Shown here one piece after another: positions 20,715-21,015 of a stretch of 42,274 bases of DNA. The position numbers were made by a program, and so were the translations under genes. Below the pieces are notes generated by a model. That model was given only the letters and a program-made list of their open reading frames with translations. It did not search any database and was not told where the DNA came from. This stretch comes from Clostridiales bacterium (lineage in GTDB: Bacteria > Bacillota > Clostridia > Peptostreptococcales > Acidaminobacteraceae): positions 1-42,274 of the forward strand of contig JAIOSU010000097.1 in the NCBI GenBank assembly GCA_021107455.1, written 5' to 3'. Each line of letters opens with the position of its first letter. Within the stretch, counting starts at the first letter, position 1.

Positions 20715-20742
20715 ATGATTTTTCCTCCCAGTATTAAAGCAC

Positions 20743-20775
20743 AAAAAATAGCAATAGACACACTGTCTATTGCTA
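20743..20775 (-). terminator. Strong intrinsic terminator just upstream of the mutS2-like gene
   Basis: TAGCAATAGACA (20749-20760) and TGTCTATTGCTA (20764-20775) form a perfect 12-bp stem with a 3-base loop, followed by six U on the minus-strand RNA (A-run 20743-20748). No coding gene ends within 220 bases upstream. It either ends a small RNA or attenuates the mutS2-like gene, whose ribosome binding site lies only about 15 bases further on. Confidence 0.9.
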
Positions 20776-20980
20776 CCGCAATTTTCCATTTTACATTTTC
20801 AGACACAAAAATAGAGTCCTATTATGCACAGTGTTCTAAACCAACTTTCAGCATCAACCGTATGACAAATAAACCTTTCCTAAAGGTCTGTCATGATTCA
20901 TACCGATTTTAAGTTACTAGTTTAGAACGACTCCATTCATAAAGCGACTCCCATGCGAGTTGCATTTTTGCAACTCTTAC
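20743..20980 (-). ncRNA. Candidate structured RNA or long regulated leader
   Basis: A non-coding stretch between tag and the mutS2-like gene has a promoter at one end and an intrinsic terminator at the other, giving an RNA of about 235 bases. It contains a perfect 8-bp hairpin (GAGTTGCA-N4-TGCAACTC, 20957-20976). Next comes a 9-bp closing pair GTTCTAAAC/GTTTAGAAC (20833-20841 with 20920-20928), which encloses a two-part hairpin: ATGACA/TGTCAT at 20862-20867 and 20889-20894, inside it ACCTTT/AAAGGT at 20873-20878 and 20882-20887. I do not recognise a known riboswitch, T-box, 6S or SRP RNA pattern. Either an independent small RNA or a mutS2 leader with attenuation would fit. Confidence 0.5.
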
Positions 20981-20986
20981 CCATTC

Positions 20987-21015
20987 ATTATATTCTTGGT
21001 CAAAGAATATTGCAA
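20987..21015 (-). promoter_or_regulatory. Sigma-A-type promoter at the 3' end of tag
   Basis: On the minus strand TTGCAA (21010-21015) and TATAAT (20987-20992) are separated by exactly 17 bases. The -35 box lies in the last codons of tag. Transcription would begin near 20980 and run into the candidate RNA and the mutS2-like gene. Confidence 0.75.

Follow-up and report, generated by a model that had tools for sequence, protein, structure and literature searches.

The window, the whole stretch of 42,274 nucleotides analysed here, comes from a Clostridiales bacterium of the Acidaminobacteraceae (contig JAIOSU010000097.1). On its minus strand, the interval from the tag stop codon (21000) to the start of a mutS2-like gene (20714) is occupied by a leader, the features of which are collected in Table 1. 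The original prediction had described a promoter, an 8-bp hairpin, a 9-bp closing pair, a nested hairpin and a 12-bp terminator with six U in this interval, and all of them were recovered at the same coordinates. It had also counted about 235 bases without a coding gene, which is contradicted by a seven-codon upstream open reading frame (uORF) that has its own Shine-Dalgarno sequence and is kept in relatives. The 239-nt minus-strand sequence folds with −83.6 kcal/mol (z −8.7), and none of 200 dinucleotide shuffles folded equally well. Taken as a class, sites resembling promoters show no enrichment in the region (nine versus 7.5 ± 3.0 in shuffles), and the promoter by itself is therefore weak evidence.

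Table 1. Features of the leader and of the gene behind it, with positions in the window.
Feature	Position	Strand	Basis or remark
Sigma-70-type promoter, TTGCAA-17-TATAAT	20987..21015	-	10/12 consensus; overlaps tag end
Promoter boxes	TTGCAA 21015-21010; 17-bp spacer; TATAAT 20992-20987	-	Sequence
8-bp 5' hairpin (GAGUUGCA/UGCAACUC)	20957..20976	-	Fold; outside conserved core, absent from model alignments
uORF Shine-Dalgarno, GGGAG	20948..20952	-	7 nt before AUG
uORF, AUG AAU GGA GUC GUU CUA AAC UAG (MNGVVLN)	20917..20940	-	Seven codons; codons form closing-pair arm
P1 5' arm, anti-antiterminator (GAGUCGUUCUAAAC)	20920..20933	-	Inside uORF; comparison
Closing pair, GUUCUAAAC with GUUUAGAAC	20928-20920 with 20841-20833	-	9 bp; 78 bases between
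Apical hairpin, candidate RNA polymerase pause hairpin	20871..20889	-	Fold, helix 3 of covariation test, comparison
UUAUUU, fits NusG pause motif TTNTTT	20867..20872	-	Sequence
P1 3' arm (GUUUAGAACACU)	20830..20841	-	Covariation and folding
Antiterminator 5' strand, UAGAACACUGU	20828..20838	-	Permutation test, folding
Antiterminator 3' strand, ACAGUGUGUCUA	20755..20766	-	Inside terminator hairpin; permutation test, folding
Intrinsic terminator: 12-bp perfect stem, loop GUG, U tract (six U)	20742..20777	-	Sequence
MutS2-like ATPase gene, 638 aa	18798..20714	-	Shine-Dalgarno ~20729-20724; KOW-like C-terminal segment, no SMR match

A single scan of genome contigs yielded one relative only. The 239-nt leader was searched in 61 genomes (own, genus, family and order) and matched in seven, some of the matches being spurious; L007 and L008, among the first nucleotide hits, matched weakly and in part only and were discarded. 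A 15-base core matched in six of 41 genomes of the family, five of which hold real leaders (the window, G003, G063, G011 and G064, from two genera). A core match with one mismatch (L017), lying before a pyrH-looking gene and lacking the rest of the leader, was also dropped. The five leaders have in common the uORF MSGVVLN or MNGVVLN (MSGVVLNR in one), the GUUCUAAAC/GUUURGAAC helix and the terminator, and all five precede a MutS2-like gene. Their fold z-scores are −7.2, −6.4, −4.6, −3.9 and −2.1, the last being that of G064, which folds mildly better than its shuffles (5/200 as good).

Two covariance models, R1 and R2, were built from five and 21 leaders respectively. Searches with them over 393 genomes of the order, 391 of the class and 398 of the phylum gave 36 distinct leaders in total. 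R1 detected 21 leaders in 20 of the 393 order genomes, and 20 of these leaders lie upstream of a MutS2-like gene. R2 matched in seven class and 11 phylum genomes; the window is included in both counts, and G037 is counted once more in that of the class. Lowering the E-value limit kept a plus-strand match on L023 (E 0.022) out of R2. The models are blind to genes, and 31 of the 36 leaders have a MutS2-like gene on their own strand 91–458 nt further downstream. The other five precede genes for an ABC-F protein (L067), ABC exporters (L072, L076) and a GNAT acetyltransferase (L068), and a gene remnant (L043) that is presumably bpsA-like. The ABC-F protein is of the ribosome-protection type, and its nearest matches are the ExpZ entries 8buu and 6ha8, which are VmlR2 and VmlR respectively. 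The leader before the remnant is a second copy in one genome (L043/L063, G019:C3), where a small ORF (MLSVKREY...) and a truncated gene follow it.

The association was also approached from the protein. A protein search gave a match at E <= 1e-115 in 80 of the 393 order genomes, including G002, in which the gene is broken. Besides the window's own, 29 loci from these 80 genomes were examined. Thirteen loci (L119, L122, L123, L126, L128–L132 and L134–L137) were in genomes without an earlier leader hit; an R2 leader lies upstream of nine of these at E < 0.001, two more match R2 at E 0.034 and 0.4, and the remaining two, L136 and L137, have no R2 match upstream. L136 and L137 carry longer uORFs, MKKFKYSETVVGLLNK and MKKITNYFESVVRLLNK, which end in VVxLLNK and are overlapped at that end by a hairpin of their own; this leader type is found some 100–170 nt upstream of the mutS2-like gene. 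R2 gave no match at any of 22 loci of canonical mutS2, 21 of which hold 1413–1497 upstream bases and one of which (L100) is cut off at model position 693. The genome of the window has one single R2 place at E <= 1.

R2 was also without a match in two close relatives from the genus of the window in which the locus has decayed. G001 retains a stub of the gene only and no leader, and G002 is missing 137 bases of the leader core, its gene matching in two pieces without residues 195–414. Thus, the pair seems to be dispensable and to have been lost together. The notion that the 137 bases are an element inserted in the window was rejected, because the same core stands with the same gene in another genus and the G002 gene is incomplete; loss in G002 is the simpler reading. 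Among records of a plasmid collection, the best four of 60 matching ones carry the leader upstream (E 6e-7 to 2.1e-4), and these belong to Cytobacillus spongiae, Acetoanaerobium noterae, Paenibacillus cellulosilyticus and Paenibacillus sp. IHB B 3084. In the last of these, leader and MutS2-like gene (L140) lie on the 115-kb plasmid pHD01 with a tyrosine-recombinase gene about 1.2 kb on; the cassette may therefore move.

The uORF start codon stands exactly 12 nt 5' of the P1 arm in 34 of the 36 (ATG in 30, GTG in four), and an in-frame stop follows after six, seven or eight codons. A short uORF with a Shine-Dalgarno sequence in or overlapping the anti-antiterminator, as in leaders of the vmlR type, is thus present at a fixed place in these 34. 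The consensus peptide is M[S/I/L]xxVLN, mostly of seven to eight codons, with Val at codon 5 in 33, Leu at codon 6 in 32 and Asn at codon 7 in 28 of the 34 uORFs. Because the model contains AUG, the search itself accounts for part of the start-codon conservation. It does not account for the synonymous codons: Ser2 is written as AGT, TCG or TCT, and Leu6 as CTT, CTA, CTG, CTC or TTA. The two exceptions are MPVVLN in L068, with its start at −9, and MRRIFLAF in L067, which is in another frame. The V-L end of the peptide may resemble the arrest sites of Erm leader peptides.

The P1 helix formed by part of this uORF is conserved as a structure. In the 36-row alignment, which is fitted to the covariance model and so favours helix statistics, 91.3% of helix cells are paired versus 78.2% in shuffles, and 14 of 18 helix pairs show double-sided changes versus 7.2. 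Covariation in the stems had been named by the original prediction as a check, and the helix covariation score of 0.300 compares with 0.108 in shuffles, with none of 500 shuffles reaching it and six slid controls at or below 0.049. RNAalifold on the first five leaders gave 38 pairs, 13 of them changed on both sides. Primary sequence is conserved in the uORF and its Shine-Dalgarno sequence, in the helix partner and in a U-rich stretch. Inside the long hairpin, both length and sequence differ among leaders. Where codon 6 changes, the facing helix arm changes with it (CUA/UAG, CUU/AAG), and L037 has AUC/GAU in place of AAC/GUU. Thus, peptide and helix are both kept.

The same codons could be read as control codons of a classical biosynthetic attenuator, in which a shortage of branched-chain amino acids would slow the decoding of Val-Val-Leu and stall the ribosome. 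The window uORF does have Val4, Val5 and Leu6, and the near-constancy of codons 5 and 6 across leaders fits such sensing. However, these are the only two control codons conserved, and because both sit in the P1 arm, helix constraint explains part of their conservation. In addition, the genes behind the leaders (MutS2-like ATPases, ABC-F, ABC exporters, GNAT) include no known amino-acid biosynthetic gene, and the uORF of the ABC-F copy reads MRRIFLAF. Amino acid sensing is therefore considered unlikely.

The original prediction recognized no known RNA class, and the Rfam covariance search of the window agreed, with no match above a curated score. The best sub-threshold match in the window was greA, at 25.2 bits with 60 needed; this and the other weak hits of a permissive search (a plant miRNA and two streptococcal sRNAs) were all set aside as below their cut-offs. 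Among 20 of the 36 homologous loci taken together, Rfam reported only one ZMP/ZTP riboswitch (RF01750; L065:1762-1844, plus strand), which lies outside the leader and on the strand opposite to it. A metabolite riboswitch or other ligand-binding leader would account for the strong conserved structure ending in a terminator, but we regard it as very improbable given these Rfam results and a hairpin interior that, unlike an aptamer, varies in length and sequence. Because the conserved core is a translated-looking uORF overlapping the anti-antiterminator, the sensor should be the ribosome and not a metabolite aptamer. Of the earlier layout, a conserved, covarying leader that looks designed for attenuation before a mutS2-like gene is upheld, and the description as riboswitch-like is not, the core being a short ORF; the sequence probably constitutes a leader enclosing a tiny seven-codon gene rather than a riboswitch.

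The predicted switch involves a pairing of the P1 3' arm region with the 5' half of the terminator. The antiterminator duplexes of the leaders' own sequences average −7.8 kcal/mol, versus −6.7 ± 0.29 when permuted, and one of 5000 permutations was as good, in a test made without correction for the relatedness of the leaders. The pairing is weaker than −5 kcal/mol in L030, L031, L038, L039, L042, L069, L073 and L075, in some of which the wrong hairpin seems to have been picked. When the leader RNA of the window was folded at length 226, with synthesis having reached UCUA of the terminator, masking of the uORF raised the probability of the antiterminator from 0.00 to 0.96 and lowered that of the terminator from 0.42 to 0.00. 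Antiterminator and intrinsic terminator are thus mutually exclusive in these predicted folds, as in vmlR-type leaders. From length 230, four bases on, the terminator is favoured at equilibrium even with the uORF masked; therefore the switch must be kinetic, and timing matters.

The motif TTNTTT occurs between the uORF and the P1 3' arm in 25 of the 36 leaders and is absent from 11, compared with 16.1 ± 2.3 leaders in 200 shuffles (maximum 24). A hairpin followed by this motif fits the NusG pause of vmlR and tlrB, and a candidate pause is proposed here by that analogy. Further hairpins resembling terminators were seen 3' of the leader in L033, L035, L036, L040, L065, L066, L068, L070, L071, L073, L074, L077 and L078. 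Their loop or arm holds TGTTC, complementary to GAACA of the P1 3' arm, which suggests tandem terminators served by a single antiterminator strand. In L030, L032, L033, L035, L036, L037 and L043 the gene is also closely preceded by another short ORF, which has a strong Shine-Dalgarno sequence. These ORFs begin with ML (MLRVN, MLPVR, MLYFK; longer in L030, L032 and L043) and may constitute a second sensing step.

With its own promoter and strong terminator, the transcript might instead work in trans as a free small RNA, with the terminated RNA itself as the product. Listeria rli80, a similar terminated leader, was initially described as a small RNA that is made constitutively (PMC6310831). A trans-acting RNA would need neither a fixed place before one gene type (31 of 36) nor a uORF nor an alternative pairing, and this explanation is accordingly judged highly improbable. 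A terminated leader of about 235 nt would be expected to accumulate, and we infer that it is a by-product of attenuation.

The product of the gene behind the leader has the MutS core and ABC-type ATPase of canonical MutS2. The window protein scores 588.5 bits against TIGR01069 (residues 4–524 on model positions 2–527 of 790) and aligns to MutS2 structures over residues 7–507. In a profile comparison of 25 short and 21 canonical proteins, the C-terminal segment matched the canonical KOW region with a probability of 96.7% (E 4.6e-10, 57 columns). Pfam MSSS, however, reaches no more than sub-threshold scores, and these in five of 19 short proteins (best 23.5 versus 26.8 bits), with none reported in the window protein at E 0.001. 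No SMR match was found in the window protein, nor at E 0.1 in any of the 19 proteins (639–694 aa) behind the other order-level MutS2 leaders; the canonical copy that the window's genome has besides the short form gives 92.1 bits for SMR. The family cut-off was passed in all 23 genomes checked, by a whole-model match in 21, a match cut off at position 693 in G002 and the short form only in the draft genome G739. An open short form was present in 21 of the 23, the exceptions being G001 and G002. In a tree of 46 proteins, a single branch with 100/100 support splits short from canonical forms, although midpoint rooting sets three long-branched short forms beside the canonical ones. As judged from these sequences, we infer that the leader controls a MutS2 paralogue with an ATPase and a KOW-like segment and with SMR absent.

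MutS2 of Bacillus subtilis (structures 7qv3, 8qpp and 8r55) shares the MutS core, the ABC-type ATPase and, as far as the profile comparison suggests, a KOW-like segment with the short form, which differs from it in having no SMR match. The B. subtilis protein splits stalled ribosomes, its loss sensitizes cells to chloramphenicol, tetracycline and erythromycin, and deletion of SMR strongly lowers its binding to ribosomes (PMC10897456). An SMR-less paralogue must therefore be recruited some other way. By analogy, the MutS2-like product may free stalled ribosomes.

From sequence comparison and modelled folds together, we consider it likely that the leader is a uORF-controlled transcription attenuator in which ribosome stalling switches on the MutS2-like gene. 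Without stress, a ribosome would read the uORF quickly and leave, P1 would form and lock the antiterminator strand, and the terminator would then end transcription about 28 nt before the gene. Under stress, a ribosome would stall in the uORF, the neighbourhood of the V-L-N end being the likeliest place and 50S antibiotics, by analogy, the likeliest inducers. The stalled ribosome would block P1 and leave UAGAACACUGU free to pair with ACAGUGUGUCUA; this pairing would prevent the terminator, and the gene would be transcribed. The resulting SMR-less ATPase would then act alongside ordinary MutS2 as an inducible partner, splitting or clearing ribosomes that have stalled.

A broader proposal has two parts: that SMR-less MutS2 paralogues of Clostridia and Bacilli form an undescribed, antibiotic-inducible family of ribosome-splitting resistance proteins, and that M-x-x-x-V-L-N represents a novel short peptide that arrests ribosomes in dependence on a drug and is carried by a portable leader cassette, also used before ABC-F, ABC exporter and acetyltransferase genes. 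We give the two together an even chance. Attenuators that depend on ribosome stalling mark genes that cells switch on against ribosome inhibitors, and here one conserved leader without an Rfam match stands before MutS2-like genes in several families of Bacillota. It draws attention to a little-studied group of inducible proteins for ribosome rescue, beside HflXr and the ABC-Fs, and its short peptide, the Val-Leu-Asn end of which hardly varies, offers material for stalling assays. The open-access literature searched contained no paper joining MutS2 with a uORF or with transcription attenuation. In that literature, MutS2, ribosome, antibiotic and leader peptide came together only in a Pseudomonas review, and among the titles found none concerned this leader or an SMR-less bacterial MutS2.

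The layout and the principle are already known from vmlR, tlrB, bmrCD and hflXr, with which the leader is compared here by their published descriptions. The vmlR leader of B. subtilis has the same layout, an antiterminator overlapping both anti-antiterminator and terminator, with a uORF in the anti-antiterminator SL-1, a pause hairpin SL-2, TTNTTT and a terminator (PMC9226507). One leader of the present set (L067) precedes a close relative of VmlR and VmlR2. However, the vmlR uORF encodes MIN (PMC10201436) and not M[S/I/L]xxVLN, and vmlR controls an ABC-F protein, whereas the leader described here is found mainly before a MutS2-like ATPase. The tlrB (yxjB) leader of B. subtilis is likewise an antibiotic-induced leader-peptide attenuator with a NusG-dependent pause, but its peptide is MIIQFIRYR (PMC6851288). 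Similarly, bmrB-bmrCD of B. subtilis combines antibiotic-induced attenuation with an ABC transporter target, as for L072 and L076, but with a 53-codon bmrB leader peptide (PMC4191407). In Listeria, the rli80 leader of hflXr (lmo0762) is also an attenuator with a small ORF and induces a homologue of a ribosome-splitting factor; its ORF has 14 codons with an RLR motif and its target belongs to the HflX family, not to MutS2 (PMC6310831). By analogy with that system, the simplest reading is that leader and gene would form the MutS2 counterpart of HflXr.
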